Origin: Salipiger abyssi | GTDB taxonomy: Bacteria; Pseudomonadota; Alphaproteobacteria; Rhodobacterales; Rhodobacteraceae | Length of the DNA stretch: 64,000 nucleotides | Direction of reading: 5' to 3' | Assembly: GCF_017311415.1 (NCBI RefSeq) | Contig: NZ_JAEKIS010000004.1 | Coordinates: 186,001-250,000, forward strand | Part shown: positions 8,847-56,144 of the stretch, in pieces | How the letters are laid out: each line of letters starts with the position of its first letter | Numbering within the stretch: position 1 is the stretch's first letter | Translations under genes and position numbers: made by a program | Notes under the pieces: model-generated | The model's input: only the letters and a program-made list of their open reading frames with translations | Told to the model about the DNA's origin: nothing | The model's database searches: none

Positions 8847-8856
8847 GGAAGGGCTT

Positions 8857-38327: not shown

Positions 38328-39017
38328 ATGTCGGCACTCGACGACTCTGACCTTCGCGTCACAGGGCAAACCGTAAGCCTGCGGGATCTTGTGACAGAGA
38401 AACTGCGCCTCGCGATCATCACCGGGCGGTTCCAGCCCGGTCAGCAACTGAAAGAACGCGAGCTGTGCGAGTTGACCGGCGTCAGCCGGCCCTCTCTGCG
38501 CGAGGCGCTGCGGCTGCTCGAGGCCGAAGGGCTCGTGACCTCGGTGCTCAACCGCGGCCAGTTGGTGGTGAAGCTCACTCCGGAGCAGGTCGGGCAGATC
38601 TATCAGATGCGCCAGCTGCTGGAGACCTTCGCCGCCAAGGAATTTGCCCGGCGGCGCGTTCCCGAGGAGCTTCGCGCACTCGATCAGGGCATCGCGCTGC
38701 TCGACGACCTGCGCGACAACGCTGATCGCTTTGCCATGCTGCAAGCCGGGCGCAAGATCTACTCCGCCATTGCGAATGGCGGCGGCAACGCCTTTGTCGC
38801 CGAAACGCTGGGGCTGCTGCACAATCGGATCGCGCTCATCCGGTTCATCGCGCTTCAGGATCACGACAAGTTTCTCACGCATTGCGACGAGCTGCGCGCA
38901 CTTTCAAAGGCGATCCACGACGGCGATGCGGATCTGGCGAAGAAGCTCTGCAAGGCACATCTCGCCGGCATCGCCACCACTGCCGAACATATTGTCGCAA
39001 ACGACTACAAGCTGTGA
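38328..39017 (+). CDS. GntR family transcriptional regulator, FCD domain
   Basis: This 229-residue protein has an N-terminal winged helix-turn-helix (LKERELCELTGVSRPSLREA, read with LRLLEAEGLVTS) at about residues 20-85 and a helical FCD domain. Histidines usable for metal or ligand binding remain in LTHCDELRALSKAIHDGDA and KAHLAGI. It is read divergently from the second ABC importer and 203 nt upstream of the fused hydantoinase gene. By position it most likely controls the importer; control of the hydantoinase gene is less likely because that gene carries a different motif. Confidence 0.9.
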   Translation: MSALDDSDLRVTGQTVSLRDLVTEKLRLAIITGRFQPGQQLKERELCELTGVSRPSLREALRLLEAEGLVTSVLNRGQLVVKLTPEQVGQIYQMRQLLETFAAKEFARRRVPEELRALDQGIALLDDLRDNADRFAMLQAGRKIYSAIANGGGNAFVAETLGLLHNRIALIRFIALQDHDKFLTHCDELRALSKAIHDGDADLAKKLCKAHLAGIATTAEHIVANDYKL

Positions 39018-39159
39018 CCGGACGGCCGCCACCCACCCTTGCGTCCTGCGCCCCCTGACCGGCGCAGGACGCGCTCAAATTTTCAGCGCCCACACGGATC
39101 TGCCCAAGGAAAAGCCACTGACTCCTGGATCGAAGATCACCGCGCAGCGGCAAAATTGC

Positions 39160-39189
39160 AGTAATACTAAATTATAGTAATACTAAATT
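39160..39189. promoter_or_regulatory. Direct repeat of a 14-bp operator-like motif upstream of the fused hyuAB gene
   Basis: AGTAATACTAAATT occurs at 39160-39173 and again at 39176-39189, a 16-bp period. The pair lies 31-61 nt upstream of the ATG in AT-rich DNA. A possible promoter, TTGCAG (39156-39161) and TAATAC (39178-39183) 16 nt apart, would be covered by the repeats. The same 14-mer occurs inverted before the XRE-cupin gene at 43058-43071. Confidence 0.65.
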
Positions 39190-39220
39190 TTGACGACATC
39201 GACGGCGAGAGGCACAGGGC

Positions 39221-42200
39221 ATGACGGGCTACAGAGTCGGAATCGATATCGGCGGCACCTTTACGGATCTCTTTCTGAGCGCGCCCGAAGCCGACCGCGC
39301 CGCCCTGCACAAGACACTCACGACGCCGGACGATCCGTCGCGCGGCGCGCTCACCGGCCTGACAGAGCTGCTCGCCCGCGAGGGTGTCGCGATGCGCGAT
39401 CTCGGCGAAATCGTCCACGGCACGACGCTGGTCACCAATGCGGTGATCGAGCGCCACGGCGCCCGTGTCGGCCTGCTGACAACGGCCGGCTTCCGCGACA
39501 CGCTCGAGATCGGCAATGAACAGCGCTACGACATCTACGACCTCGACCTCGCCTTTCCCGAACCGCTGGTGCCCCGTGACCTGCGCCGCGAAGTGACGGG
39601 GCGGATCGACGCCCAGGGCCGGGAGGTGGAACCGCTGGACGAGGCCGGGCTTACCGTCGAGCTGGAGGCGTTGGTGGCCGCGGGCTGCACTGCTATCGCG
39701 ATCTGCTTCGTCCATTCCTATCGAAACCCCGACCACGAGCTGCGCACCGCCGAGATCGTCAAGGCCGCCTATCCCGGGCTCGCAGTGTCGGTCTCCGCCG
39801 CCGTGGTCGGCGAGATCTCCGAATATCCGCGCTTTGTAACGACCTGTGCCAACGCCTTCGTTCAACCGCTGATGGCCGACTATCTGGCCCGGCTGGAAAC
39901 CGAGCTGGCAGCACAGGGCTTTGCCGGCGCGCTGCGCCTGATGACCTCGGCGGGCGGGCTGGTGCCGGTGGACACCGCCCGCGCCCTACCGATCCGGTTG
40001 CTTGAAAGCGGCCCGGCGGGCGGAGCGCTGGCCACCGCCTGGTTTGCCGGTGCGGCGGGCCTTTCTGATGTGCTCAGCTTCGACATGGGCGGCACCACCG
40101 CCAAGGCCTGCCTGATCGAGGGCGGTGCACCGCATATCGCCCCCGTGCTGGAGGCCGGGCGCGAACATCGGTTCAAGAACGGCTCCGGCCTCCCGGTGCG
40201 CGCGCCCACCGTCGACATGATCGAGATCGGCGCGGGCGGCGGCTCCATCGCCGGCATCGACGCGGTTGGGCTGCTGAAGGTCGGCCCGCGCAGCGCCGGC
40301 GCGGCCCCCGGCCCGGCCTGCTACGGGCGCGGCGGCACGGATCCCACCGTCACCGATGCCTCGGTGCTGTTGGGCTACTATGACCCCGAGCGCTTTCTCG
40401 GCGGCAAAATGGCGCTGGACCGCGCGGCGGCAGAAACCGCAATGCAGGAAATCGCCCGGCCTCTGGGCTTCTCCACCGTCGAGGCGGCCTGGGGCATTCA
40501 CCAGACCGTGGCGGAGTCCATGGCCTCGGCGGCGCAGATCCACATGGTGGAAAAGGGCCGCGACCCGCGTGACTACGCGATGATCGGTTTCGGCGGTGCC
40601 GGCCCGGCCTTCGCCGCCCGCGTCGCCCGCATCCTCGGGGTGGCCGAGGTGCTGATCCCACCCGCCTCGGGCGCGGCCTCGGCGCTGGGTTTTCTCTCGG
40701 CGCCGTTGGCAGTCGATCTGGTGCGCTCGCGCCCGATGCAGATCGGCGAGGCGCTTTCCGGCGGGATCGAGACACTGGCCGCCGAAATGCGGCAGGAGGC
40801 GATAGCCGAGCTGACCGCAGCCGGGCTCTCCGAGCAGGCCGTTGGCTGCGACCTGACGCTCGACATGCGGCTTCGGGGGCAGTTGCATGTGGTCTCCGTC
40901 CCGCTGCCCGACGGCACGCTGGACACCTCGGCGGAGCCGGTGCTCAGGGCGGCCTTCGAGGCGGTCTATCTCAACCGCTACTCCCGGCGTCCGGCGGAGG
41001 CGCCGCTGGAAATCCTCTCCCTTCGCCTGCGCGCCCGGGGCCCTGCGCCGGATCTGTCGGTGGGCACCGCAACGGCCGTTAGCGCCATCGCCGCGCCGCG
41101 CAGCCGCGAGGTCTGGACCGGCGCGGCCTGGGAAACCGCCAGCGTCCACCTCCGTGCCGAGCTGACCGAAGGCCAGGAGATCGCCGGCCCCGCCATCGTC
41201 GAAGAACCCGAATCCACCACGCTGATCCCCAAGGGCGACAGCGCCGCGCTGGACGGTGCGGGCAACCTTCGCATCCGCATCGGACGCAACACCGAAGCTG
41301 CTGTGAGGGTCACCGGCGCGCTGCCGCTGACCGAAGCCAAGGCGCGGCTGGAGGCGGACCCGATCGCGTTAGAGATCATGTGGGCACGGCTCGTCACCGT
41401 GACCGAAGATATGTGGCAGACCGTCTGCCGCACCGCGTTTTCGCTGATCATCTCGGAAAGCCAGGATTTCGGCTGCGCACTGCTCGACCCGTCGGGCGAG
41501 ACCATTGCCCATTCCGCCCGGGTCATGCCGGTCTTTAACATCACCCTGCCCCGCGCCGTGCGCCATATTCTCAAAACCTACCCAGCCGATCAGATGCGCG
41601 AGGGCGATGTCTATGTGACCAACGACCCCTGGGAATGCGCCGGGCATCTCTTCGATATCGCGGTGGTCACGCCGGTCTTTGCCGAGGGCCAGGTCGTGGC
41701 GCTGGCCGCAACGGTCGGCCATGTCGGCGATATCGGCGGGCTGCGCAACGGTCTGGCGGCGACCGAAGTGTTCGAGGAAGGCTTGCAGATCCCGCCCATG
41801 CGGCTGGTGCGGGAGGGCGCGGAGAACGAGGATCTCTTCCGCCTTATGTTCCACAATGTACGCGAGCCGGGCCAGGTGCTGGGCGACGTGCGCTCGCTGA
41901 TCACCGCCAACGCGCGCGGCGCGGCACAGGTGCGGCGCTTCCTCGCCGAATACGGGCTGCGCGATCTACGCGGGCTGGCCGCCGTGCTTCAGGACCGCTC
42001 CGAGGCCGCCATGCGCGCCGAGATACGTGCCCTGCCGGACGGCACCTATCGCTCGACGGTCGATTTCAACCCTCTGGGCCAGCGCATGACCATCCCAATG
42101 GCATTGACCGTCAGCGGCGACGAGATCGAGGTGGATTTCGCAGGCGCACCGGCGCAGGTGCCGCTGGGCGGCATCAACTGCACCATGAGCTATACCGAGG

Positions 42201-43015
42201 CGCATGCAACCTATCCGCTGAAATGCATGCTGACCCCCGGTGTGCGCGGCAATGCCGGCTGCTACCGGCCCTTTACCGTCAAGGCGCCGGCACGCTCGAT
42301 CCTGAATTGCGATCATCCCGCGCCGGTGAGCCTGCGCACGCGAACCGGCTGGTATTCCTCGCCCAACATCTTCCGTGCCATGGCCGAGACCCTGCCCGGC
42401 GCGGTGCGGGCCTATTCCGGCCTGCCCAGCGTGCTGACATTCTGGGGCACCGACCCGGAGGGCAAACCCTATTCCGAGATGCTTTTGATGGGCGGCGGAC
42501 AGGGCGCGGGACAGCGGCTCGACGGGCGCGGCGCGCTGCTCTGGCCGACCTCGGCGGCCTCCTCCTCGCTGGAACTGCTGGAGCAGCGCCTGCCGATCCT
42601 GGTGCAGGAAAAGGGCTTTGTCATCGACAGCGGCGGGCCGGGCGCGGCGCGCGGCGGCCCCGCGACGCGCATCCGCGTGCGCCGGCGCGATGGCGATGGG
42701 CAAATGACCTGCCAGGTCGCGCCCGAAGGCGTCGACCTGCCGGTCGCGGGTCTGCATGGCGGCGGCGCCGGACTCAGCGCCCGTGCGACGATCACCAACG
42801 CCGAGGGCGTGACCGATTGCGGCACAGGCGGGATCTTTGCGCTGGAGGGGCTTAGCGACGAGATCGAGCTGATCCTCTCCGCCGGCAGCGGCTTCGGCCC
42901 GGCGCAAGAGCGCCCGGTGCCGTTGGTCGAGCGCGATGTCCGGCTGGGGCTGGTCTCGCCTGAAGCGGCGGAGAGCGCCTATCAATTGACCGACCGCAAG
43001 GAGAAAGCCGCCTGA
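39221..43015 (+). CDS. Fused hydantoinase/oxoprolinase (HyuA-HyuB, 5-oxoprolinase-like)
   Basis: This 1264-residue protein joins a HyuA half and a HyuB half. The HyuA half (about 1-690) has the sugar-kinase-like ATPase motifs VGIDIGGTFTDLF, LVTNAVIERHGARVGLLTT, LSFDMGGTTAKAC and EIGAGGGSIAGID. The HyuB half starts near residue 705 (DPIALEIMWARLVTVTEDMW). The fusion order and length are those of ATP-dependent 5-oxoprolinase (about 1288 residues), which opens pyroglutamate to glutamate; related enzymes act on N-methylhydantoin. It acts in the cytoplasm and has its own promoter with the 14-bp direct repeat. Exact substrate is open. Confidence 0.9.
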   Translation: MTGYRVGIDIGGTFTDLFLSAPEADRAALHKTLTTPDDPSRGALTGLTELLAREGVAMRDLGEIVHGTTLVTNAVIERHGARVGLLTTAGFRDTLEIGNEQRYDIYDLDLAFPEPLVPRDLRREVTGRIDAQGREVEPLDEAGLTVELEALVAAGCTAIAICFVHSYRNPDHELRTAEIVKAAYPGLAVSVSAAVVGEISEYPRFVTTCANAFVQPLMADYLARLETELAAQGFAGALRLMTSAGGLVPVDTARALPIRLLESGPAGGALATAWFAGAAGLSDVLSFDMGGTTAKACLIEGGAPHIAPVLEAGREHRFKNGSGLPVRAPTVDMIEIGAGGGSIAGIDAVGLLKVGPRSAGAAPGPACYGRGGTDPTVTDASVLLGYYDPERFLGGKMALDRAAAETAMQEIARPLGFSTVEAAWGIHQTVAESMASAAQIHMVEKGRDPRDYAMIGFGGAGPAFAARVARILGVAEVLIPPASGAASALGFLSAPLAVDLVRSRPMQIGEALSGGIETLAAEMRQEAIAELTAAGLSEQAVGCDLTLDMRLRGQLHVVSVPLPDGTLDTSAEPVLRAAFEAVYLNRYSRRPAEAPLEILSLRLRARGPAPDLSVGTATAVSAIAAPRSREVWTGAAWETASVHLRAELTEGQEIAGPAIVEEPESTTLIPKGDSAALDGAGNLRIRIGRNTEAAVRVTGALPLTEAKARLEADPIALEIMWARLVTVTEDMWQTVCRTAFSLIISESQDFGCALLDPSGETIAHSARVMPVFNITLPRAVRHILKTYPADQMREGDVYVTNDPWECAGHLFDIAVVTPVFAEGQVVALAATVGHVGDIGGLRNGLAATEVFEEGLQIPPMRLVREGAENEDLFRLMFHNVREPGQVLGDVRSLITANARGAAQVRRFLAEYGLRDLRGLAAVLQDRSEAAMRAEIRALPDGTYRSTVDFNPLGQRMTIPMALTVSGDEIEVDFAGAPAQVPLGGINCTMSYTEAHATYPLKCMLTPGVRGNAGCYRPFTVKAPARSILNCDHPAPVSLRTRTGWYSSPNIFRAMAETLPGAVRAYSGLPSVLTFWGTDPEGKPYSEMLLMGGGQGAGQRLDGRGALLWPTSAASSSLELLEQRLPILVQEKGFVIDSGGPGAARGGPATRIRVRRRDGDGQMTCQVAPEGVDLPVAGLHGGGAGLSARATITNAEGVTDCGTGGIFALEGLSDEIELILSAGSGFGPAQERPVPLVERDVRLGLVSPEAAESAYQLTDRKEKAA

Positions 43016-43057
43016 CCGGGCGGTGCCCCTTGACGGAATCGCCCGATCCATCTCAAA

Positions 43058-43071
43058 AATTTAGTATTACT
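43058..43071. promoter_or_regulatory. Inverted copy of the 14-bp motif before the XRE-cupin gene
   Basis: AATTTAGTATTACT is the exact reverse complement of the motif repeated at 39160-39189. It ends 14 nt before the GTG start, immediately upstream of the AAAGG ribosome-binding site. Identity extends further, since on the minus strand it continues as TTTGA, as at 39176-39193 apart from one extra T. Autoregulation by the XRE-cupin protein is the simplest explanation. Confidence 0.65.
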
Positions 43072-43085
43072 TAAAAAGGTGCCCT

Positions 43086-43763
43086 GTGACAGGTGAAACG
43101 AAACATGAAACAGGCCGGCCAAGCGGCAAGCCGGAAATCGGCGCCAGGCTGCGCGCCCGGCGCCGCGAGCTGAAACTGACCCTTCAGGACGTCGCGGAAC
43201 GGGCCGGGCTATCGACCGGCTTCATCAGTCAGGCGGAGCGCGATATCGCCATCCCCTCGCTGACCTCGCTCAACCGGATCTGCACCGTGCTGGGCATCGC
43301 CGTGCAGGACGTGCTGCCGGGCTCCGGCCCCGCCCCCGAGGCCACCCGGCGCGACGCCCGGCAGACCCTCAAGCTGAAACAGGAGAGCCCGCAGGCGACC
43401 GCCTATGAACGGGTCTCGACCACCTTCCCGGGCTCGGTCCTGAACGGCGTGATCATCCGCGAGGCGCCCGGCTACCGCAGTGAGCCGCAAAGCCATGAGG
43501 GCGAGGAAATCTTCTTTGTCCTCGAAGGCGCGCTCACCGTCGAACTCGAAGGCGAGCGGATCGAGCTGGCCGCCGGCGACAGCCTGCATTTCTCCTCTCA
43601 CCGGCTGCATTCGACCTGGAACCACACCGACCGCGAGGCGGCGGTCCTGCATGTCTGCACCATGGATGTTTTCGGCGACCGCATCGCCGCCGCAGAGGAT
43701 ATCCCCGGCACCCGCGCCGGGCACGAGGCCGCCCTGCTCGAAGCGGCGGAGGAGCGGAAATGA
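43086..43763 (+). CDS. XRE-family regulator with C-terminal cupin domain
   Basis: A GTG start at 43086 gives 225 residues; no in-frame ATG is close. The helix-turn-helix is at about residues 18-75 (LTLQDVAERAGLSTGFISQA), and a cupin barrel spans about 115-200 with metal-type residues in SHEGEEIFFVLEG (His137) and HRLHSTWNH (His172, His175, His180). Such proteins sense small metabolites, often amines or amino-acid derivatives, and repress catabolic genes. It heads the GAF-HyuA-HyuB-M24-HyuB unit and overlaps the GAF gene by 4 nt. The 14-bp motif before it and before the fused gene is its likely operator. Confidence 0.9.
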   Translation: MTGETKHETGRPSGKPEIGARLRARRRELKLTLQDVAERAGLSTGFISQAERDIAIPSLTSLNRICTVLGIAVQDVLPGSGPAPEATRRDARQTLKLKQESPQATAYERVSTTFPGSVLNGVIIREAPGYRSEPQSHEGEEIFFVLEGALTVELEGERIELAAGDSLHFSSHRLHSTWNHTDREAAVLHVCTMDVFGDRIAAAEDIPGTRAGHEAALLEAAEERK

Positions 43764-44257
43764 CCGCCTGGACCGGATTTGCCGAGGCCGCCGCCGGCGA
43801 CGATCTCGACGCGCTCTTCGCGGCGCTCTGCGCTCTGGTGCAGGAAGAGATCGGCGCGCAGCTCTTTACCGTCATGACTTTCGATCCGGTCACCCGGCTG
43901 GCGAGCCGCACCTGGTCGAACAGGCCCGGAGAATACCCGCCCGGCGGCACCAAGGAGATGCCGCCCACCGACTGGGGCGCGCGGGTGCTGGACCGTCACG
44001 AACCCTTTGTCGCGCAGGTGCCCGAGGAATTCGCCCCGCATTTCCCCGATCACGAACTGATCGTCAGTCTCGGCTGCGAAAGCTGCCTCAACCTGCCGGT
44101 GGTCGTGGCCGGCGAGGTGCTGGGCACGCTCAACTGCCTCGACGTCGCGTATCACTACACGCCCGAGCGCGTCGCCCGCGCCGCGAGACTGATCGCGCCC
44201 GGCGCGCTCTGCCTGATGCTCGAGCGCAAGACCAACCCGGAAAGGACAGCCGCATGA
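43760..44257 (+). CDS. GAF domain protein with a CxxC motif
   Basis: This 165-residue protein is a single GAF domain (LDALFAALCALVQEEIGAQL; LNLPVVVAGEVLGTLNCLD) without any output domain. Cysteines at 106, 109 and 126 (SLGCESCLN, GTLNCLD) could form a redox or metal site; free-methionine-sulfoxide reductases are also GAF proteins with cysteines, though the motif differs. It overlaps the regulator upstream and the HyuA gene downstream by 4 nt each, so it is tightly coupled to the hydantoinase. A sensory partner of the cupin regulator or an accessory for the HyuA/HyuB enzyme is possible; the role is not known. Confidence 0.8.
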   Translation: MTAWTGFAEAAAGDDLDALFAALCALVQEEIGAQLFTVMTFDPVTRLASRTWSNRPGEYPPGGTKEMPPTDWGARVLDRHEPFVAQVPEEFAPHFPDHELIVSLGCESCLNLPVVVAGEVLGTLNCLDVAYHYTPERVARAARLIAPGALCLMLERKTNPERTAA

Positions 44258-46368
44258 CCGAAACGGACCGCAGCCGCACCATCCGCGTCGCCACCGATGT
44301 GGGCGGCACCTTCACCGACATGGTCTGTTTCGAAACGGATCTGGAGACCGGCGCAAGCCGCATCACCACCGCCAAATCCGACACCACGCCGCCGGATTTC
44401 GAAAAGGGCGTTCTGAACGTGCTGGCAAAGGGCGGGGTCGATCCGGCCACGGTCGATTTCATGGCGCATGGCACCACCGTGGTCATCAACGCGCTGACCG
44501 AACGCAAGGGCGTCAAGGTCGGGCTGATCACCACCGAGGGCTTCCGCGACACGCTGGAGATCGCGCGCGGCAACCGGCCCGACTTCTTCAACCTGCATTA
44601 TGTCAAGCCGGCGCCCTTCGTGAAACGCTACCTCCGGCGCGAGCTGCCCGGGCGAATGAACTACAAGGGCGAGGAGACGCAAGCGCTCGACCTCTCGGAC
44701 CTTGCCGGGATCCTCGAGGATTTCCGGGCCGACGAGGTGCAGGCGATTGCCGTCTCGCTGCTGCATGCCTATGCCAACCCCGCCCATGAAGAGGCGCTTC
44801 TCGACGCGATCCGCGCGCTCTGGCCAGAGGTCTCGGCGGTGGGCTCGCACCAGATCAGCCGCGAGTGGCGGGAATACGAGCGGGGCAATTCCGCGGTGCT
44901 CTCGGCCTATGTCCAGCCCGTCGCCGAGCGCTATCTGCGCCGGCTGGAATCCGGACTGACCGAGGGCGGGTTCGGCGGCCAGCTCTATGTAATGCAGTCC
45001 AATTGCGGCATCGACAGCCTTGAGGCAACCGCCCGCATCCCGATCACCATGGTCGAAAGCGGCCCGGCGTCGGGCTTCTGGGGCGCCGCCGAGCTCGGCA
45101 AGCTGATCGGAGAACCCAATGTGCTGGCGCTCGATATCGGCGGCACCACCGCGAAATGCTCGCTGATCGAGGGCGGCGAGGTCAAGATCATGACCGACTA
45201 CTGGATCGAGCGCGACCGCACCAGCGCCGGCTATCCGATCATGGTGCCGGTCGTGGATCTGGTCGAGATCGGCAATGGCGGCGGCTCGATCGCCTGGGTC
45301 GACGATTTCGGCAAGCTGCATGTGGGGCCGCAATCCGCCGGTGCCGTGCCCGGACCCGCCGCCTATGGCAAGGGCGGCAGCGAGGCGACCACGACCGACG
45401 CCAATCTCTGGCTGGGCCGGATCAACCGCGACTATTTCTGCGGCGGCGCGGTCGAGGCGGATATGGAAGCGGCGGGCGCCGCGCTACAGACCGTTGCCGA
45501 CAGGCTCGGCGTCGACCGCGATCAGGCTGCACAGGGCATCGTGCGTATCGCCAACAACAACATGGTCAACGCGCTGAAACTGGTGTCGCTGAACCGCGGC
45601 CACGATCCGCGCGATTTCGTGCTGGTGGCCTTTGGCGGCGGCGGCGCCATGCATGCGGTCGCGCTGGCGCAGGAACTGGGCGTGAAGAAGGTGGTCATCC
45701 CCACCGGCGCCTCGGTATTCTCGGCCTGGGGCATGATGATGTCCGACCTGCGCCGCGACTATTTCCTCACCGCGCTCGCCGATCTGGGCGATGGCGCCGC
45801 AGCGGCGCTGGAAGCCCGCTTTGCCGAGACCGAAGCGCAGGCCCGCAACCAGTTCGCCGCGGAAGGCGTGGCCGCCGACAAGGTCGCACTCAAGCGCTTC
45901 GGCAAGTTCCGCTACCAGAACCAGGAACACACCGTCGAGGTGCCCATCGACGGCGCCGTGACCGAGGACGCGCTCGCCCGCATCGCCGCCGATTTCCACG
46001 ACGCCTATGAAAAGGAATACACCTATCGCCTGGCCGCGCCGGTCGAGATGGTGGGCCTGCATGTCATCGCCTCCGCCGAGGTCGGCAAGCTGACACCGGT
46101 CGAGCAGCCGCTGAGCGACGCGCCGGCCGGCACCGCATCAAAGGGCCGCCGCAGTGTCGACTACGCGATTGAGGGCACTCACGAGGCCGAGATCTATGAC
46201 GGCGAGAAGCTGCTGCCAGGCATGCGTTTCGACGGGCCGGCCATCGTCGAGGATCCGGGCACGACCATCGTCGTCCATCCCGGCAACAGGGTGGAGGTAG
46301 ATCGCTGGGGCAATCTGCACATCCTGCTCTCCGTCACCGCCGAGACCCCGACGCTGGAGGCGGTCTGA
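44254..46368 (+). CDS. hyuA: Hydantoinase/oxoprolinase subunit HyuA
   Basis: The ATG at 44254 (MTETDRSRTIRVATDVGG) overlaps the GAF stop and gives 704 residues, normal for HyuA. ATPase-fold motifs are VGGTFTDMVCFE, FMAHGTTVVINALTER, LALDIGGTTAKCSL and EIGNGGGSIAWVD; the later FGGGGAMHAVALAQELGV is also typical. HyuA carries the nucleotide-binding half of ATP-dependent cyclic-amide hydrolases and requires HyuB. Its stop codon overlaps the hyuB start by one base. It is a different paralogue from those at 39 and 56 kb. Confidence 0.92.
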   Translation: MTETDRSRTIRVATDVGGTFTDMVCFETDLETGASRITTAKSDTTPPDFEKGVLNVLAKGGVDPATVDFMAHGTTVVINALTERKGVKVGLITTEGFRDTLEIARGNRPDFFNLHYVKPAPFVKRYLRRELPGRMNYKGEETQALDLSDLAGILEDFRADEVQAIAVSLLHAYANPAHEEALLDAIRALWPEVSAVGSHQISREWREYERGNSAVLSAYVQPVAERYLRRLESGLTEGGFGGQLYVMQSNCGIDSLEATARIPITMVESGPASGFWGAAELGKLIGEPNVLALDIGGTTAKCSLIEGGEVKIMTDYWIERDRTSAGYPIMVPVVDLVEIGNGGGSIAWVDDFGKLHVGPQSAGAVPGPAAYGKGGSEATTTDANLWLGRINRDYFCGGAVEADMEAAGAALQTVADRLGVDRDQAAQGIVRIANNNMVNALKLVSLNRGHDPRDFVLVAFGGGGAMHAVALAQELGVKKVVIPTGASVFSAWGMMMSDLRRDYFLTALADLGDGAAAALEARFAETEAQARNQFAAEGVAADKVALKRFGKFRYQNQEHTVEVPIDGAVTEDALARIAADFHDAYEKEYTYRLAAPVEMVGLHVIASAEVGKLTPVEQPLSDAPAGTASKGRRSVDYAIEGTHEAEIYDGEKLLPGMRFDGPAIVEDPGTTIVVHPGNRVEVDRWGNLHILLSVTAETPTLEAV

Positions 46369-48026
46369 TGGCGCTCGACCCGATCACCAGCGAGATCATC
46401 CAGAACTCGCTCCAGGCCGCCGCCGACGAGATGTTCGTGGCGATGAAGAAAACCGCCATGTCCTCGATCATCTACGAGGTTCTGGACATGGGCACCGGCA
46501 TTCTCGACGCGCAGGGCGAGATCGCCTCCTCCGGCGCCGGCATCCCGGCATTTGTCGGCGTGCTGGACAAGGCGGTCAAGGTCATCGCCGCCAAGTTCCC
46601 CGCCGACAAGGTGCGCGAGGGCGATGTCTACGCCACCAACGACCCGTTCTATGGCGGCGTCACACATCTCAACGACATCATCGTCGCCATGCCGGTCTTT
46701 GCCGGTGGCAGGCTGATCGCCTGGACCGCCAATATCGCGCATAACTCCGATGTCGGCGGCATGGCGCCCGGCTCGCTGACCGGTGAGGCGACGGAGATCT
46801 TTCAGGAAGGCCTGCGCCTGCCCGCCATCCAGCTGATCGAGGCGGGCACACCCATCGCGCCGGTCTTCGAGATCCTCAAGGTCAACAGCCGCATGCCGGA
46901 CGTGTTGGAGGGCGACGTCTGGGCGGCGATTTCCTCGGTCCGGGTCGGGGCGCGGCGCCTGACCCAGCTGGCCGACAAATACGGGGTCGCGGCGTTCGAA
47001 CAGGCGCTGTCCGACTTCATGGACCATGGCGAGAAGGTGTCGCGCGCGGCGCTGGCCGAGCTGCCCAAGGGCAGATATGCGCTCGACGAGGAACAGGACG
47101 ACGGGTCGGTCTTCAACGTGAAGATCGAGATCACCGACGACCGCTTTATCGTCGATCTGCGCGACAACCCAGACCAATCGCCGGGGCCCACGAATTCCTG
47201 TCGCGACGGCGTCATGGTCGCGGCACAGATGCTGTTCAAATCGCTCACCGACCCGCGCGGGCTCGCCAATGCGGGCAGTTTCCGGCCCATTGAGCTGCTG
47301 ACCCGCAAAGGCTCGGTTTTCGACGCGCAGGAACCGGCGGCGATGGGCTTTTACTACGAGCTGGAGCTGCGCGCCTACGATCTCATGTGGCGCTGCCTCG
47401 CGCCGCACATGGCCGACCGCCTGGGCGCGGGGCATTTCGCATCCGTCTGCGGCACCTTCATCGGCGGCATCCATCCCGATACCGGACGGCAATATACGAT
47501 CATCGAGCCACAGGTCGGCGGCTGGGGCGCCGCCGCCGGGCGCGACGGCAACTCGGCGATCTTTTCCTCATTCCATGGCGAGACATACAACTGCCCCGCC
47601 GAGATCAACGAGGCGCGGAACGGCGTGATCATCGACCGGATGACGCTGAACACCGCCCCCGGCGGCGAGGGCCGCGAGACCGGCGGGCGCGGTGTGATCA
47701 TCGACTACCGCACCCGTTCCGAGGCGGGCTATGTCACCGTCGGCTATACCCGCTCGCGTTTTCCTGCCTGGGGTCTGGATGGCGGCCACGCGGGCAGCCC
47801 CAACTATGTGCGCTTCATCCCGGCCGAGGGCGAGCCCCGCGAGTTCGCCTTCGTGTCGAACATGAAGACGCGGCCCGGCGACGTGATCCGGGTGATCACC
47901 GGCAATGGCGGTGGCCTGGGCGATCCAAAGGACCGCCCAAGCGACAAGGTCGCGGCGGATCTGCGCGACGGGCTCATCAGCGCCGATACGGCGCGCGACA
48001 TCTACGGATACGAGGGAGAGGCGTGA
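46368..48026 (+). CDS. hyuB: Hydantoinase/oxoprolinase subunit HyuB
   Basis: This 552-residue protein has the HyuB pattern: DPITSEIIQNSLQAAADEMF at the start, TNDPFYGGVTHLNDIIV, HNSDVGGMAPGS, then FGG-less C-terminal glycine-rich stretches such as VGGWGAAAGRDGNSA and GNGGGLGDP. It is the second subunit of the ATP-dependent hydrolase with the preceding HyuA. Its stop overlaps the M24 gene start. It is closely similar to the second HyuB at 49.1 kb, about three quarters identical over the first 68 residues by eye, indicating a duplication. Confidence 0.92.
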   Translation: MALDPITSEIIQNSLQAAADEMFVAMKKTAMSSIIYEVLDMGTGILDAQGEIASSGAGIPAFVGVLDKAVKVIAAKFPADKVREGDVYATNDPFYGGVTHLNDIIVAMPVFAGGRLIAWTANIAHNSDVGGMAPGSLTGEATEIFQEGLRLPAIQLIEAGTPIAPVFEILKVNSRMPDVLEGDVWAAISSVRVGARRLTQLADKYGVAAFEQALSDFMDHGEKVSRAALAELPKGRYALDEEQDDGSVFNVKIEITDDRFIVDLRDNPDQSPGPTNSCRDGVMVAAQMLFKSLTDPRGLANAGSFRPIELLTRKGSVFDAQEPAAMGFYYELELRAYDLMWRCLAPHMADRLGAGHFASVCGTFIGGIHPDTGRQYTIIEPQVGGWGAAAGRDGNSAIFSSFHGETYNCPAEINEARNGVIIDRMTLNTAPGGEGRETGGRGVIIDYRTRSEAGYVTVGYTRSRFPAWGLDGGHAGSPNYVRFIPAEGEPREFAFVSNMKTRPGDVIRVITGNGGGLGDPKDRPSDKVAADLRDGLISADTARDIYGYEGEA

Positions 48027-49129
48027 TGCCGAAGGACGTGGTCACCAACCGGATGGAGGCGCTGCGAACCGCGATGATCGCGGAAGGCATCGAGCTGCTG
48101 GCGCTCGGCCCCGGACCGCATATGCAATGGCTGCTGGGCTTTCAGCCGCATGCGGACGAGCGTCTGCTGCTGCTGCTCGTCACGCAGCAGAGCGCCGAAT
48201 TCGCCATGCCCGCGCTGGAGGCCGACAGCGCCAGCCAGCATACCGACCTGCCAATGCATCCCTGGGCCGATGCGGAGGGGCCGGACGATGCACTCGACAG
48301 CGCGCTTGCGGCGGTGAATGGGAACGGCGCCATGACCGTAGCGGTCGACGAGGGCATGCGCGCGGATTTCGCGCTGGCCCTGCTCGACCGGCTGCCCGGC
48401 GCGCGGCATGTCTTCACCCCCTCGACGCTTGGCCGGCTGCGCATGAAGAAAGACGAGGACGAGCGCGCCCGGCTCAAGGCCAGCGCCCTGCTCGCAGACG
48501 AGGCGATGACAGCCGCCTTCGCCGCGATCCGGCCCGGCATGACCGAGAACGCGGTCAAACAGATCGTGGAGGAGCGGTTTGCCAGGGATGGCGCCAGCCT
48601 GGAATTCGCGATCATCGGCACCGGCGGCAACGGCGCTTTCCCGCATCACCACACCGGCGACACGGTAATCCAGGCGGGCGACGCTATCGTGATCGACATC
48701 GGCGCGCGGCTCGGCGGCATGCCTTCCGACATCACCCGCATGTGCGTCGTCGGCGAAAAGCCCGAGGGCTATGACGAGATCCACGCCATCGTCGAGGGCG
48801 CCGTGCAGGCGGCCATGCGCGCGGCGAAACCGGGTGTGACCGCGCGCGAGATCGACGCGGCGGCGCGCAATCACATCGCACAGGCGGGCTATGGCGAGAA
48901 CTTCCTTCACCGCACCGGCCACGGGCTCGGCATCGAAGTGCATGAACCGCCCTACATGACCGGCTCGTCCGACACGGTGCTGGAGGAGGGAATGGTGTTT
49001 TCCATCGAGCCCGGGATCTACCTCACCGGCCGGTTCGGGCTGCGGCTCGAAGAGATTGTCTATCTGACCGCCGACGGCGCCGAGCGCTTCTCGGAACTGC
49101 CGCGCGACGTGACCGTGGTCGGAGGCTGA
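48026..49129 (+). CDS. M24 family metallopeptidase (Xaa-Pro aminopeptidase/creatinase type)
   Basis: The ATG at 48026 overlaps the HyuB stop and gives 367 residues. The pita-bread fold ligands are complete: Asp214 (VIDIGARLGG), Asp225 (SDITRM), His289 (RTGHGLGIEVHEP), Glu318 (FSIEPGIYL) and Glu332/333 (LRLEEIVYL). These enzymes either remove N-terminal residues before proline or cleave creatine-like C-N bonds. It sits between two HyuB genes, 3 nt before the second, so it probably acts on the linear product of ring opening, such as a prolyl or N-carbamoyl compound. Confidence 0.92.
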   Translation: MPKDVVTNRMEALRTAMIAEGIELLALGPGPHMQWLLGFQPHADERLLLLLVTQQSAEFAMPALEADSASQHTDLPMHPWADAEGPDDALDSALAAVNGNGAMTVAVDEGMRADFALALLDRLPGARHVFTPSTLGRLRMKKDEDERARLKASALLADEAMTAAFAAIRPGMTENAVKQIVEERFARDGASLEFAIIGTGGNGAFPHHHTGDTVIQAGDAIVIDIGARLGGMPSDITRMCVVGEKPEGYDEIHAIVEGAVQAAMRAAKPGVTAREIDAAARNHIAQAGYGENFLHRTGHGLGIEVHEPPYMTGSSDTVLEEGMVFSIEPGIYLTGRFGLRLEEIVYLTADGAERFSELPRDVTVVGG

Positions 49130-49132: not shown

Positions 49133-50713
49133 GTGGCCGCCGACCCCTTCACACGCGCGGTCATCCAGGCCGGGCTGACGGCTGCGGCGGACGAGATGTT
49201 CGCCGTGCTGAAAAAGACCGCCATGAGCCCGATCATCTACGAGGTGCTCGACGTTGGCACCGGCATCACCGATGCAGAGGGCGAGATCGTCTCCTCGGGC
49301 GCCGGCATTCCCGGTTTTGTGGGCGTTCTCGACAAGGCGGTGAAGCGGATCGTGGCACTGCACGGACCGACGGTGAAGGACGGCGATGTCTTTGTGACCA
49401 ACGATCCCTACTGGGGCGGGGTCACGCATCTCAATGATGTGGTGGTGGCGCAGCCGGTGTTTGTCGAGGGCAAGTTGCTGGCCTGGACCGCCTCCATCGC
49501 GCATTGGAACGACGTGGGTGGGATGACGCCCGGTTCGATGCCCGCCGACGCGGTCGAGATCTTTCAGGAAGGGCTGCGCCTGCCCTGTATCCGGCTGTTC
49601 GACGGCGGGCGCCGCATCGACGCGGTGTTCGACATCATCGCCACGAATTCCCGCCTGCCCGATTTCGTCATGGGCGATCTCTGGGCGCAGATCTCCGCCG
49701 GGCGGCGGGCGGCGAAACCCATTGCCGAGATGGCCGCGACCTACGGCACGGAGAGCTTTCGCGACGCCATCGCAGCGGCCTTTGCCGAGGGCGAGGCCCG
49801 TGCCCGCAGCGGGCTCGCCGCGCTGCCCAAAGGACGTTACCCGGTGGCGCAGGAGCAGGACGAGGGCGAGACCTGGCACGCGGTGATCGAGATCACCGAC
49901 GAGGCCTTCACCGTCGATCTTACCGGAGCGCCCGATCAGAAACGGGGGCCGTTCAACACCTCGCGCGACGGCACGCTCATCGCCTGCCAGCTTATCTTCA
50001 AGGTTCTGACGGATCCGGCACTCTACGCCAATGCCGGCTCCTTCCGCCCGCTGAAGGTGATCACCCGGCCCGGCACGATCTTCGAGGCCGAGGCGCCGGC
50101 ACCGCACGGTTATTACTCGGAGACACGGATCCGCCTCTCGGACATGTTGTGGCAGACCATGGCCCAGGTTCTGCCCGACCGCCTGCCCGCCGGTCATTTT
50201 GCCTCGATCTGCGGCACGGTGATCGCCGGGATCCATCCCGATACCGGGCGGCGCTACACGATGGTCGAGCCGCAGATGGGCGGCTGGGGCGCCACCGCCG
50301 AGCGCGACGGGCTAGACGCGATGTATTCCACCAATCACGGCGACACGTTCAACTGCCCGGTCGAGATCTGCGAGGCGCGCTATGGCATCGATGTCGGCTG
50401 GCGGCAGCTGTCGGAAAGCCCGGCCGGCAAGGGCCTGCACAGCGGCGGGCGCGGCCTCTCGACCTGCTACCGCCCGCGCGGTCGCGCCACGCTTGCCGCC
50501 GGCTACAGCCATACCCGCGTGCCGGTCTGGGGCGCCAATGGCGGCGATTGCGGCGGGCGCAACCGCATCGCCATAGAGCGCCGCGACGGCGGCACAGAGG
50601 CCTTCGCCTTCGCCTCGGGCATCGTGCTCGAACCCGGCGACGCGCTGCGGATCGACACCGCGAATGGCGGCGGCTGGGGACCGCCCGCCTCCAACAATGA
50701 AGAGACCCCATAA
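49133..50713 (+). CDS. hyuB: Second HyuB-type hydantoinase/oxoprolinase subunit
   Basis: A GTG start at 49133, 3 nt after the M24 stop, gives 526 residues. Motifs parallel those of the HyuB at 46.4 kb: AAADEMFAVLKKTAMSPIIYEVLD, TNDPYWGGVTHLNDVVV, HWNDVGGMTPGS and VEPQMGGWGATAERDG (longer ones read in parts). No HyuA accompanies it, so it would have to share the HyuA at 44.3 kb or that at 56.1 kb. It is followed 40 nt later by the binding-protein gene of the third ABC importer. Confidence 0.9.
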   Translation: MAADPFTRAVIQAGLTAAADEMFAVLKKTAMSPIIYEVLDVGTGITDAEGEIVSSGAGIPGFVGVLDKAVKRIVALHGPTVKDGDVFVTNDPYWGGVTHLNDVVVAQPVFVEGKLLAWTASIAHWNDVGGMTPGSMPADAVEIFQEGLRLPCIRLFDGGRRIDAVFDIIATNSRLPDFVMGDLWAQISAGRRAAKPIAEMAATYGTESFRDAIAAAFAEGEARARSGLAALPKGRYPVAQEQDEGETWHAVIEITDEAFTVDLTGAPDQKRGPFNTSRDGTLIACQLIFKVLTDPALYANAGSFRPLKVITRPGTIFEAEAPAPHGYYSETRIRLSDMLWQTMAQVLPDRLPAGHFASICGTVIAGIHPDTGRRYTMVEPQMGGWGATAERDGLDAMYSTNHGDTFNCPVEICEARYGIDVGWRQLSESPAGKGLHSGGRGLSTCYRPRGRATLAAGYSHTRVPVWGANGGDCGGRNRIAIERRDGGTEAFAFASGIVLEPGDALRIDTANGGGWGPPASNNEETP

Positions 50714-50753
50714 CAAAACCAACCAACGACGGACCAACAGAGGACGGAAACAG

Positions 50754-52355
50754 ATGACAATGATGACGAGGCTCGGCCTCCTTGCCTGCTCTGCCGCGAT
50801 GTTCCTCGCGGCCCCCCTTGCCGCACAGGAACGGCCCCTGCGGCTGGACGAAGCCGCCGTCGGCGAAATCGACCCCGCCAAGGGATCGGATTACGCCGAT
50901 ACCGTGCTGGGCGTGAATCTCTACGAAGCGCTGGTCTATCCCAAACAGGGCGGCCCCGGCGTGCAGCCCTGGCTCGCCAGCGATTGGACAATCGACGGGC
51001 TCACCTACACCTTCACCCTGCGCGACGGCGCAACATTCGCCGGCGGCAACCCGGTGACCGCCGCCGACGTGGTCTATTCCTATGACCGCCTGATGGCGCT
51101 CGGCCAGGGCCCCTCGTCGCTTTTCGAGGGCCGGGTCGAAAGTATCGAAGCCGTCGATGACAGCACCGTTGCCATCACCCTCACCGCACCCTTCGCACCT
51201 TTCCTCGCGTCGCTGGTGCAGCTGTCGGTGGTCGACAGCAAACTGGCCATGGAACATCAGGCCGAGGGGGATTTCGGAGAATTCGGCGATTACGCCTCGG
51301 CCTGGCTCTCCTCGGCCTCCGCCGGCTCCGGCGCCTATATGACCAGCGAGCACGACCCGCAGATCGAAACCGTGATGGTGCCGAATCCGAACTACACCGG
51401 CCAGGCGATGGATCCGCTGGCCCCCGACGAGGTGACCTATCGCTACTCGCTCGAAGCCTCGACCGTGCGCGCGCTGATGTCGCGCGGCGAGCATGACATC
51501 TCGTCGCTCTGGCTGCCGCCGGAGGTTCTCAAGGCGATGGAGGCGGACGGTACCGTGCATCTGGCCGCCGAACCGGGCGGCACGGGCGAGTACATCATGC
51601 TCAACACCCGCCGCCCACCGCTCGACGACGTGCATTGCCGGCTGGCGCTGACCTATGCCTACGACTACGCCACCACCTTGCAGCTGCTGGCGGTGACCGA
51701 TGACATGGCACAGGGCATCGCGATGAACGGCGCCCTGCCCTCGGGACTCTACGGTGCCGATCTCGACCGGCCGATGCCCACGCAGGACATGGACAAGGCC
51801 CGGGAGGAGCTCGAGCTCTGCCAATATGCGCCGGACGAATATCCGCTCGATCTCGCCTGGATTGCCGAGGTGCCCGCGCGCGAGCGGCTGGCGCTGCTGA
51901 TGCAGGCGACCTTCACCCAGCTCGGCATGGACGTGAAGGTGACGCGGACGCCCTGGGCGCTGATCACCCAGCAGGTGACCGAACCGGAAACCGCGCCGCA
52001 CGCCATCGAGATCGCCGTGTCGATCCGCACGCCGGACACGGATTCGCTGATGTACAACATGTACAGTTCGACTGTCCCGCATACCTGGATGTCGGCCTCC
52101 TATCTCGCCGATGACGAGGTCGATGGGTATCTCGAAGCCGGTCGCACCGAGACCGACCCCGAAGCGCGGGCAGAGATCTACCGCAATCTGAACGCCCGCC
52201 TGCGCGATCTGGCCCCGGCGATCTATGCCTACGAGTTCACCGGCGTCTACGGCATCCGCAACGGCATCGAGGTTCCCAATCTCGAAGAAGAGGGAAAGCT
52301 CTATCCGATCTCTGCCTTCTCGATGTTGTTCAAGGACATCCGGGTCACCGACTGA
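50754..52355 (+). CDS. Peptide-type ABC transporter substrate-binding protein (SBP family 5)
   Basis: The ATG at 50754 (MTMMTRLGLLACSAAMFL), preceded by AGAGGACGG, gives 533 residues with a signal peptide ending at APLAAQE. The family-5 stretch FTLRDGATFAGGNPVTAADVV is present (read in parts); the usual WHDG is replaced by FAGG. It captures the substrate for the third peptide-type importer. Its location between two hydantoinase gene groups suggests that it binds cyclic amides, hydantoins or related peptides. Confidence 0.92.
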   Translation: MTMMTRLGLLACSAAMFLAAPLAAQERPLRLDEAAVGEIDPAKGSDYADTVLGVNLYEALVYPKQGGPGVQPWLASDWTIDGLTYTFTLRDGATFAGGNPVTAADVVYSYDRLMALGQGPSSLFEGRVESIEAVDDSTVAITLTAPFAPFLASLVQLSVVDSKLAMEHQAEGDFGEFGDYASAWLSSASAGSGAYMTSEHDPQIETVMVPNPNYTGQAMDPLAPDEVTYRYSLEASTVRALMSRGEHDISSLWLPPEVLKAMEADGTVHLAAEPGGTGEYIMLNTRRPPLDDVHCRLALTYAYDYATTLQLLAVTDDMAQGIAMNGALPSGLYGADLDRPMPTQDMDKAREELELCQYAPDEYPLDLAWIAEVPARERLALLMQATFTQLGMDVKVTRTPWALITQQVTEPETAPHAIEIAVSIRTPDTDSLMYNMYSSTVPHTWMSASYLADDEVDGYLEAGRTETDPEARAEIYRNLNARLRDLAPAIYAYEFTGVYGIRNGIEVPNLEEEGKLYPISAFSMLFKDIRVTD

Positions 52356-52362
52356 CCCTCCG

Positions 52363-52388
52363 GGCTCCGGGGGGATGCTCCCGGAGCC
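52363..52388 (+). other. Hairpin after the third ABC binding-protein gene
   Basis: GGCTCCGGG and CCCGGAGCC form a perfect 9-bp stem with an 8-nt loop, beginning 8 nt after the binding-protein stop. There is no T-run; permease genes follow on the same strand. A role in transcript protection is likely. Confidence 0.5.
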
Positions 52389-52410
52389 ATCCGACCATCA
52401 GGAGAGTTCC

Positions 52411-52536
52411 ATGCGCATTCTGTGGGAGACCCCGGCCGGCGGCGATGCCGAAGAGGCACGCGTAACCGTCATGCCGCGACAGGCTTGCCCGGAGGGGCGC
52501 GCGGCGCCGGATACCTGCGACCAAGGGGAGGGCTGA
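52411..52536 (+). CDS. Possible 41-residue small protein between binding-protein and permease genes
   Basis: An ATG at 52411 has a strong AGGAGAG ribosome-binding site 5 nt upstream and opens a 41-residue frame (MRILWETPAGG at the start, ending CDQGEG). It ends 4 nt before the permease ATG, so it could couple translation to the permease. The sequence is hydrophilic and matches nothing I recognise; late codons are less typical of the region. It may be a genuine small protein, a leader peptide, or the remnant of a shortened gene. Confidence 0.4.
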   Translation: MRILWETPAGGDAEEARVTVMPRQACPEGRAAPDTCDQGEG

Positions 52537-52540
52537 TCCA

Positions 52541-53575
52541 ATGTCCCCGGTTCTGCGTCTTCTCCTCCAGCGGCTCGCCATCTCCGTCCTTGTGCTGATC
52601 GGCGTGTCGATCCTGATCTTCTTCATCGCCCGCATCGTGCCCGGCGATCCCGCCCGCATCGCGCTCGGCCCCAATGCCTCGCAGGCACAGGTCGATGCGC
52701 TGCGTGAGGCGCGGCATCTCAACGACCCCATCGTCGTGCAATATGGCTGGTTCCTGCGCGACATGCTGAACGGCGATCTCGGCACCTCGCTTTATACCAA
52801 GCGCCCGGTCACCCAGGATATCGCCACCTATTTCCCCGCGACGCTGGAGCTGGTGCTCTATGCCGGCGCCATGATGATCCTGCTGGGCCTGCCGCTGGGC
52901 CGGCTCGCCGCGCGGTTCCAGCGGCGCTGGCCCGACCATCTGGCACGGCTGCTTTCGGTCATCGCGGTCTGTACGCCGGCCTTTGTCTGGGGCGTGATCC
53001 TGCAACTGAGCTTTGCCTATATCTGGCCGATCTTCCCGCTCGAGGGGCGGCTGTCGAACGGCGTCGACGCGCCCGCCGCGATCACCGGGTTCTATACGCT
53101 CGACGCATTGCTGGCCGGTCAGATCGGCACGTTTTTCGACGCGCTCTATCACCTCATCCTGCCGGCCACGGCGCTGGCGCTCTCGGGCATCGGCCAGACC
53201 GCGCGGCTCACACGGTCCTCGATGATCGAGACCTACCGGCAGCCTTTCATCGGCATGGCGCGGGCCTATGGCTTTCGCGAGACCCGGATCTCGCGCCGTT
53301 TTGCCTTCTGGCCTTCGCTGATCCCGACGCTGACCATCCTCGGGCTCGATTTCGCCGCGATGCTCGCCAATGCCTTCCTCGTCGAGCGGGTCTTTGTCTG
53401 GCCGGGGCTCAGCCGCTACGGGGTCGAGGTGATCCTGCGCAAGGATCTCGACGCCATCGTCGGCGTCGTACTCGTCATCGCGGCGATGTTCCTGATAACC
53501 AACCTGATTGTCGATCTGATCGTCTCGATCATCAATCCGCGCATCCGCCTGGCGGAGAGAAAGGCGAAAGCATGA
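52541..53575 (+). CDS. Peptide-type ABC transporter permease (DppB/OppB class)
   Basis: This 344-residue protein has a DppB-like N-terminus (RIVPGDPARIALGPNAS), the periplasmic LNDPIVVQYGWFLRDMLNGD with LGTSLYTKRPV, and the conserved C-terminal LVERVFVWPGLSRYGVEVIL (read in parts). Six membrane helices are expected. It pairs with the next gene, which overlaps its stop by 4 nt. It is part of the third complete peptide-type importer, embedded in the hydantoinase region. Confidence 0.93.
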   Translation: MSPVLRLLLQRLAISVLVLIGVSILIFFIARIVPGDPARIALGPNASQAQVDALREARHLNDPIVVQYGWFLRDMLNGDLGTSLYTKRPVTQDIATYFPATLELVLYAGAMMILLGLPLGRLAARFQRRWPDHLARLLSVIAVCTPAFVWGVILQLSFAYIWPIFPLEGRLSNGVDAPAAITGFYTLDALLAGQIGTFFDALYHLILPATALALSGIGQTARLTRSSMIETYRQPFIGMARAYGFRETRISRRFAFWPSLIPTLTILGLDFAAMLANAFLVERVFVWPGLSRYGVEVILRKDLDAIVGVVLVIAAMFLITNLIVDLIVSIINPRIRLAERKAKA

Positions 53576-54420
53576 GTGGCAAATCCTCCTCGGTGGCCTG
53601 GACCGAATTCCGCTCCAACCCGATCTCGATCCTGGGGCTCGTGCTTGTGGTGTTCTGCATTGCGCTCGCGCTCTTTGCCGATGTCATCACCCCCTACCCC
53701 GCCCATGTCGGCCCAATCGGCGATTTCACCGCGATCAACCAGGCGCCCTCGGCGGCGCACTGGTTCGGCACCGACACAATCGGGCGCGATCTTCTGACCC
53801 GCATCGTTTACGGTTTCCGCCTGTCGCTGCTGATGGCGGTGCTGGTGCTGTCGATCTCGATGCCGGTGGGGGTGATCCTCGGCCTGTTCGCCGGCTATCT
53901 CGGCGGCTGGGTGGAGTTTGTGCTGATGCGGCTCACCGACATCTTCCTCGCGATCCCGCCGTTGGTACTGGCCATGGCGATCATGGGGTTCCTGCCCGCC
54001 ACGCTGACCAACGCCATGCTTGCGGTGACGGTCATGTGGTGGCCCTGGTATACGCGGCTCGTCTACAACGTCGTCCGCGCCGAGGCGCGCGAGGGCTATG
54101 TGCTGGCCGCCGAGGTGATCGGCGCCTCGCCGCTGCATCTGATGTTCCGCGAGATCCTGCCCAATTGCGCCCCCGCCGTGCTGACCAAGCTGACGCTCGA
54201 TATCGGCTTTGTCGTGCTCATGGTCTCCTCGCTCTCCTTCCTCGGCCTCGGCGTGCAGCCGCCGACGCCCGACCTCGGTTCCATGGTGGCGGACGGGGCG
54301 AAATACATGCCCGACGCCTGGTGGCTGTCGATCTTTCCGGCGCTCGCGATCATGATCCTCGTGCTTGGCTTCAACCTGCTGGGCGACGGGCTGCGCGAAG
54401 CCTTCGACGCGGAGGTGTGA
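53572..54420 (+). CDS. Peptide-type ABC transporter permease (DppC/OppC class)
   Basis: This 282-residue inner-membrane protein has the N-terminal helix and the HWFGTDTIGRDLLTRIVYGFR hallmark (read in parts), then the EAA loop GYVLAAEVIGASPLHLMFRE and the C-terminal MILVLGFNLLGDGLREAFD (read in parts). It overlaps the upstream DppB-like gene by 4 nt and is followed 2 nt later by an ATPase gene. All features are standard. Confidence 0.93.
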   Translation: MSGKSSSVAWTEFRSNPISILGLVLVVFCIALALFADVITPYPAHVGPIGDFTAINQAPSAAHWFGTDTIGRDLLTRIVYGFRLSLLMAVLVLSISMPVGVILGLFAGYLGGWVEFVLMRLTDIFLAIPPLVLAMAIMGFLPATLTNAMLAVTVMWWPWYTRLVYNVVRAEAREGYVLAAEVIGASPLHLMFREILPNCAPAVLTKLTLDIGFVVLMVSSLSFLGLGVQPPTPDLGSMVADGAKYMPDAWWLSIFPALAIMILVLGFNLLGDGLREAFDAEV

Positions 54421-54422
54421 GC

Positions 54423-55310
54423 ATGTCTTGCGTTCTCAGGATCAAGGATCTCACTCTCGGCTTCCGCAAGGGACGGCAGACCGCGCAGGTGCTGCACGGC
54501 GTCTCGCTGCATGTCGCTGCCGGCGAAAAGGTCGCGCTGGTAGGCGAAAGCGGCTCGGGCAAATCGGTGACGGCGCAGCTCGCGCTCGGGCGGCTGCAAC
54601 AAGAGCGCGGCACACTGACCACCGGCGCCATCGAGGTGGTCGGCCACGACCTCATCGCACGACCCGAGGCCATGGCGCCCGAGCGCGGGCACCGGATGAC
54701 GATGATCTTTCAGGATCCGACCTCGGCGCTGAACCCGGTCTTTCGCATCGGCGAGATCTTTGCCGAAGTGCTGCGCTCCGGCGGGCGCAGGGTCTCGGAA
54801 GCCGCCGCCCGCGAGCGCGCGCTGAAGGCGCTGGCCGAAGTGCATATCCCCGACCCGGCACGCGCGCTCGACAGCTACCCGTTCCAGCTTTCGGGTGGCA
54901 TGAACCAGCGGGTGATGATCGCCATGGCGCTGGTCAACGAGCCCGAGCTGCTGCTCGCCGACGAGCCGGGCACCGCGCTCGACGTGACGGTGCAGGCCCA
55001 GACCCTGCGGCTGATGGACGATCTGGTGACCCAGAAGGGCACGGCGGTGCTGTTCATCTCGCACAACCTCTCGGTTGTGCGAGAGTTTGCCGACCGGGTC
55101 TATGTGATCTACCGGGGCCGCATCGTCGAGCATGGCCGTACCGCCCAGCTCTTCGCCGATCCGCGCCACCCCTACACGCAGGCGCTGCTGTCGGCGGCGC
55201 CAAAGCTGATCGGCGGCGGGCTGCCCGATCTTCCCGAGCATTCCGACGCCTTCCGCGAGCCGCTGGTCGTGCATGAGGGCTGCGGCGAACCCGGTGAGGT
55301 GCCCGCATGA
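54423..55310 (+). CDS. Peptide-type ABC transporter ATP-binding protein (DppD/OppD class, short)
   Basis: The ATG at 54423 (MSCVLRIKDLTLGF) gives 295 residues. Walker A GESGSGKS, signature LSGGMNQRVMIAMAL, Walker B LLLADEPGTALD and H-loop VLFISHN are present. The protein is about 30-50 residues shorter than the comparable ATPases elsewhere in the window because the C-terminal Cys-rich extension is missing; it ends soon after HPYTQALLSAAPKLI. It overlaps the next ATPase by 4 nt. Confidence 0.92.
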   Translation: MSCVLRIKDLTLGFRKGRQTAQVLHGVSLHVAAGEKVALVGESGSGKSVTAQLALGRLQQERGTLTTGAIEVVGHDLIARPEAMAPERGHRMTMIFQDPTSALNPVFRIGEIFAEVLRSGGRRVSEAAARERALKALAEVHIPDPARALDSYPFQLSGGMNQRVMIAMALVNEPELLLADEPGTALDVTVQAQTLRLMDDLVTQKGTAVLFISHNLSVVREFADRVYVIYRGRIVEHGRTAQLFADPRHPYTQALLSAAPKLIGGGLPDLPEHSDAFREPLVVHEGCGEPGEVPA

Positions 55311-56122: not shown

Positions 56123-56144
56123 GAGCAGCAGGAAAGGAACAGAG

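Follow-up and report, generated by a model that had tools for sequence, protein, structure and literature searches.

We analyzed a 64,000-nucleotide stretch of the Salipiger abyssi genome (contig NZ_JAEKIS010000004.1, positions 186,001 to 250,000; hereafter the window), in which a 14-bp sequence, AGTAATACTAAATT, occurs twice upstream of a gene for a fused hydantoinase, hyuAB, and once upstream of xre, a gene for an XRE-cupin regulator that precedes a second set of hydantoinase genes. Our comparison of related loci points strongly to the three copies being operators of the XRE-cupin protein, which would act as a local repressor. The sites and the two genes that they precede are as follows, in window coordinates.

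39157..39171, + strand: candidate operator 1, upstream of hyuAB; TGCAGTAATACTAAA, 2 mismatches to TTTAGTNNNACTAAA
39173..39187, + strand: candidate operator 2, upstream of hyuAB; TATAGTAATACTAAA, 1 mismatch to TTTAGTNNNACTAAA
39221..43015, + strand: hyuAB, fused hydantoinase A and hydantoinase B gene, 1264 aa; Pfam Hydant_A_N, Hydantoinase_A, Hydant_A_C and Hydantoinase_B
43060..43074, + strand: candidate operator 3, upstream of xre, 11 bp before the GTG start; TTTAGTATTACTTAA, 1 mismatch
43086..43763, + strand: XRE-cupin regulator, proposed repressor; Pfam HTH_3/HTH_31 plus Cupin_2

Three palindromic sites in front of hyuAB and xre

A motif search of the window found AGTAATACTAAATT exactly at 39160-39173 (+), 39176-39189 (+), and 43058-43071 (-), the positions that an earlier note on this DNA had given. 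When up to three mismatches are allowed, the window holds four matches against 0.13 expected, and four or more were reached in 0/100 shuffles. Genome-wide (75 contigs, 5,212,682 bases), the same sequence, allowed two mismatches, occurs at four places; the only exact copies are the three in the window, and the fourth place, on contig C9, has 2 mismatches. The earlier judgment that the triplet is unlikely to be a chance occurrence is borne out by these counts. The regions around the sites are about 80% AT, in a window that is 34% AT.

The 14-mer is part of a longer AT-rich palindrome, TTTAGT-N3-ACTAAA (TTTAGTNNNACTAAA), centered in the window at 39164 (2 mismatches), 39180 (1 mismatch), and 43067 (1 mismatch), so that operators 1 and 2 lie 16 bp apart, center to center. 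The fourth window match to the 14-mer falls on the other strand, overlapping the first and second sites, because the site is a near-palindrome. For the same reason, the third copy, which had been described as inverted, is correctly placed but has no special orientation: since the 14-mer lies within the palindrome, the third copy is simply the site read from the other side.

Conservation of the palindrome with the XRE-cupin gene

The palindrome, with at most two mismatches allowed, was sought in the segments preceding 31 XRE-cupin genes, the window's own among them. It is present upstream of 21 of the 26 homologues with at least 40% identity, or 20 of 25 (40-86% identity) when the window is set aside, and in none of the five with 33-39% identity. 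In a shuffle control of the 21 palindrome-bearing segments, none of 300 shuffles was as good for 18 segments and 1 of 300 was for the other 3. Twelve hold-out loci (L079-L090) were read after the consensus had been fixed, and the palindrome was found in 10 of them, although two of the twelve, L084 and L085, are very alike and come from one genus. Across 17 longer sequences, about 346 kb in total, all 21 matches with at most two mismatches are found immediately before xre or hyuAB; one of these sequences, L103, partly overlaps another, L076. The palindrome is thus kept beside these two genes across genera. These samples were drawn under several restrictions: in the family, order, and class samples, at most seven candidates were scored per genome and strong matches only were retained; 6 of the 423 plasmid records with an XRE match were examined; and rows L042-L046 and L066 were dropped as duplicates of the window, L057, L038, L058, L059, and L078.

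Conservation extends to the sites in front of hyuAB at the four closest loci, namely L035 (metagenome-assembled genome Rhodobacteraceae SP126), L037 (Marinibacterium profundimaris), L038 (Allosediminivita pacifica), and L057 (same family). At each, hyuAB (77-87% identity) adjoins xre (74-86%), and sites are kept in front of both genes (4/4). In the alignment, the hyuAB sites stand out as islands of conservation; operator 1 is kept in L035, L037, and L057 and has an altered form in L038, and operator 2 is variably kept, being degenerate in L037. At the five more distant hyuAB loci (48-59% identity; L036, L039, L040, L041, and L103), no site was found, and the examined stretches, short for L040 and L041, had no XRE match either. 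The earlier note had proposed a regulon of hyuAB plus xre-GAF-hyuA-hyuB-M24-hyuB and had asked whether the motif is lost where the regulator is conserved. The comparison of loci supports this regulon: from genus to genus the palindrome accompanies the XRE-cupin gene, and at the closest loci neither promoter has lost its sites.

A proposed local repressor and its alternatives

Very probably, the XRE-cupin protein encoded at 43086-43763 uses the three sites as its operators and acts as a local, autoregulating repressor of its own operon and of hyuAB. The protein has an N-terminal XRE/Cro-C1 helix-turn-helix (HTH_3 and HTH_31 both above the Pfam cut-off) and a C-terminal cupin domain (Cupin_2 at residues 126-190, E 2.3e-17). 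It shares this combination with PsdR, PauR, ErfA, and PA0535 of Pseudomonas aeruginosa, whose sites likewise lie beside their own genes (PMC7901475), and the conserved site at 43060-43074 gives the S. abyssi regulator the same arrangement. As described in that source, the Pseudomonas proteins repress locally, and the palindromes that they bind lie mostly in core promoters, their repression having been established by RNA-seq, DAP-seq, RT-qPCR, and gel shifts; the palindromic form is a further likeness, three such motifs having been determined there. Their regulons are mostly small and concern catabolism or transport, PsdR being tied to dipeptide use, with PauR as an outlier at 29 regulated genes (PMC7901475). 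Unlike in Pseudomonas, the predicted targets here are hydantoinase/oxoprolinase, M24, GAF, and peptide-type ABC genes, and the likeness lies in domain architecture, site placement, and palindromic form. In the literature searched, we found no paper linking an XRE-cupin protein to hydantoinase or hydantoinase B to a GAF domain, and no description of a TTTAGT-N3-ACTAAA operator, the Pseudomonas motif sequences being outside that comparison.

In the proposed mechanism, the XRE-cupin protein would bind TTTAGT-N3-ACTAAA as a dimer. The operator in front of xre has its center 37 bp beyond a TTGAC, close to where transcription is expected to start, and this geometry fits promoter occlusion. Once bound, the protein would shut out RNA polymerase and so repress, by autoregulation, the unit that begins with xre; the two operators 16 bp apart would serve to repress hyuAB at the same time. 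Derepression would come from a small pathway metabolite recognized by the cupin domain, much as PuuR of Escherichia coli, which is homologous to PauR, comes off its site when it senses the pathway metabolite putrescine (PMC7901475). The PuuR pathway is that of polyamines, unlike the hydantoinase locus, and the likeness concerns the regulator. The genes downstream of xre and the putative promoter box are listed below.

43030..43035, + strand: TTGACG, putative -35-like box of the xre promoter
43760..44257, + strand: GAF-domain protein (Pfam), overlapping the XRE-cupin stop
44254..46368, + strand: hydantoinase A subunit, predicted to start at the ATG at 44254 within ORF (open reading frame) 43480-46368
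46368..48026, + strand: hydantoinase B subunit (domain search)
48026..49129, + strand: M24 peptidase with Creatinase_N, predicted to start at the ATG at 48026 within ORF 47387-49129
49133..50713, + strand: second hydantoinase B subunit (domain search)
50664..56122, + strand: peptide-type ABC transporter genes (SBP_bac_5, two permeases, two ATPases)
55902-58166, + strand: further hydantoinase A-type ORF, after the ABC transporter genes

The ABC transporter genes probably share a transcription unit with xre-GAF-hyuA-hyuB-M24-hyuB and would then be repressed with it. Given the hydantoinase A-type ORF that follows them, the unit may reach past the genes named in the earlier note.

Promoter geometry was compared among 21 promoters with a site of at most three mismatches in the scanned segment (L090 and L067-L071 being left out). 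The site is centered 33-38 bp after a TTGAC box in 13 of the 21, including the window, L035, L037, and L057, where the distance is 37 bp, and 10-17 bp before such a box in 9. Five promoters have both sites, 46-51 bp apart; L083 has another spacing, and 3 promoters have no TTGAC. TTGAC occurs 22 times in the 5270 scanned bases. The xre promoter of the window has the downstream site only. The earlier note had placed a TTGCAG/TAATAC promoter under the direct repeats in front of hyuAB, and this proposal fared poorly: TAATAC matches 3 of the 6 bases of TATAAT, a promoter scan did not list the pair, and TTGCAG is replaced by TTGAAG or TTTTAG at aligned loci.

Several observations weigh against the repressor reading. 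We derived the consensus by eye from those loci that had been read earlier, whose shuffle figures are therefore not independent, and the fair test is the hold-out set. Five of the 26 homologues with at least 40% identity (L058, L077, L078, L081, and L090) lack a palindrome with two or fewer mismatches. A Ketogulonicigenium plasmid has the site at xre (L076) and none at its distant hyuAB (L103), so hyuAB does not belong to the regulon everywhere. The TTGAC spacing was a later observation, without a shuffle control, and the scan for sigma-70-type promoters gave none before xre or hyuAB. Three of the five exceptional loci have features of their own. The best candidate in L081 has 4 mismatches. 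At L058, looser tandem sites (11540-11590), about 250-290 bp upstream of xre, resemble the hyuAB sites of L038; L058 has no hyuAB match, and one may speculate that these are the trace of a lost hyuAB. L077 carries another palindrome, ATTGT...ACAAT, in two copies (8839-8907), and its XRE-cupin homologue (56% identity), which precedes a hydantoinase operon about 5 kb from nitrile hydratase genes, reads SFSFISQ where most homologues read S-x-GFISQ. We take this stretch to be the recognition-helix region.

That the XRE-cupin protein represses, rather than activates, is suggested by analogy with the Pseudomonas repressors, and we regard an activator or mixed regulator acting through the same sites as improbable. 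Such a role would suit the 9 promoters with a site upstream of TTGAC, a position open to an activator, and sites 1 and 2 cannot be placed relative to the hyuAB start, as no convincing hyuAB promoter was found. The xre site of the window, however, is of the downstream kind, and the Pseudomonas XRE-cupin regulators with determined regulons are all inhibitors in the account of PMC7901475.

A second candidate binder, overlooked in the earlier note, is encoded directly upstream of hyuAB.

38328..39017, + strand: GntR/FCD regulator gene, the competing candidate; its end lies about 140 bp upstream of the first site

This gene lies nearer to hyuAB than xre does, and the sites share the GT-N3-AC core palindrome of GntR/FadR-subfamily operators (TNGTNNNACNA or TKGT-N3-ACMA). 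The second site, as TAGTAATACTA, fits the FadR-subfamily consensus TNGTNNNACNA, quoted in PMC2230225, exactly, and 3 nt between GT and AC is the typical FadR-type spacing (PMC4494728). This fit is weak evidence, as the pattern is loose (2 window matches against 3.9 expected), and it is exact in 1 of the 3 sites, the first bases differing in the other two. The common FadR-subfamily boxes are TKGT/ACMA according to PMC4494728, in contrast to TAGT/ACTA here, and the half-site here is TTTAGT. Moreover, the sites are not conserved together with the GntR gene. They persist at L035, L037, L038, and L057, in whose examined stretches no GntR homologue was found even at E 1e-3; conversely, the palindrome is present at 0 of 9 other GntR homologue loci (37-42% identity; about 3.6 kb examined for six). 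The best GntR homologue in related genomes has 37% identity (seven genome entries, of which G276 and G414 are apparently one genome), and homologues in 19 other genomes of the genus have at most 39% among the matches listed. We therefore rejected the GntR/FCD protein as the binder and hold it to be quite unlikely: the sites track xre, and no GntR homologue was found in the stretches examined at the four closest loci. Two other palindromes in the window, TTGTAAGACAA (32213-32223) and ATGTCTGACAA (37998-38008), would suit this regulator better and are possible operators of it. They adjoin the genes on its side of the locus, which lie on the - strand to the left of the GntR gene and encode a luciferase-like monooxygenase and further peptide-type ABC components. 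On Rhizobium etli and Agrobacterium rubi plasmids, GntR homologues have annotated flavin reductase genes in their vicinity, joined in R. etli by an LLM-class oxidoreductase gene.

Coincidental AT-rich words, or a common promoter element to which no specific regulator binds, would account for AT-rich sites in promoter regions but are scarcely credible for sequences that shuffling did not reproduce, whose only exact copies in the genome are these three, and that are kept beside xre or hyuAB from genus to genus.

Distribution and meaning of the proposed regulon

A whole-genome scan for TTTAGTNNNACTAAA with at most two mismatches found 9 places, including the three window sites, compared with 63 for the pattern read backward. 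Because the control is the commoner of the two, a wider regulon beyond the locus cannot be claimed, and we dropped that idea. The backward pattern may itself resemble another regulator's site. One of the matches elsewhere, on C10 (121449-121463; L093), has 1 mismatch and lies upstream of an ORF that we read by eye as a PII-type protein; it could be due to chance or reflect a nitrogen link. Another, on C4, has an apparent LysR regulator ORF on one side and an apparent Rieske oxygenase ORF on the other, both judged by eye, and may therefore be a LysR site.

The locus is patchily distributed. Within the genus, 6 of 20 genomes, the window's own included, have a match at E 1e-20 or better, and only one other reaches 57% identity; within the family, matches at E 1e-60 or better are present in 5 of 394 sampled genomes, with 55-88% identity outside the window's own. 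This pattern suggests a mobile catabolic unit. A broader proposal, to which we give about equal weight for and against, is that a single operator code, TTTAGT-N3-ACTAAA, has been kept by an XRE-cupin lineage across several alphaproteobacterial orders together with hydantoinase or peptide-transport operons, that paired operators 46-51 bp apart flanking the -35 box would allow cooperative or looped repression, and that one branch drew the fused hyuAB into the regulon.

The proposed switch is of an ordinary kind, with a well-conserved recognition sequence, and its operator and regulon add to a type of XRE-cupin repressor that is already known. The comparison of loci also illustrates that a nearer and plausible regulator, here GntR, can be excluded in this way. 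For a previously uncharacterized XRE-cupin regulator, the analysis yields an operator sequence open to testing and a defined regulon, in which the fused hydantoinase is joined by a further set of hydantoinases and a transporter of the peptide type. Any molecule that relieves the repression would be a candidate substrate.

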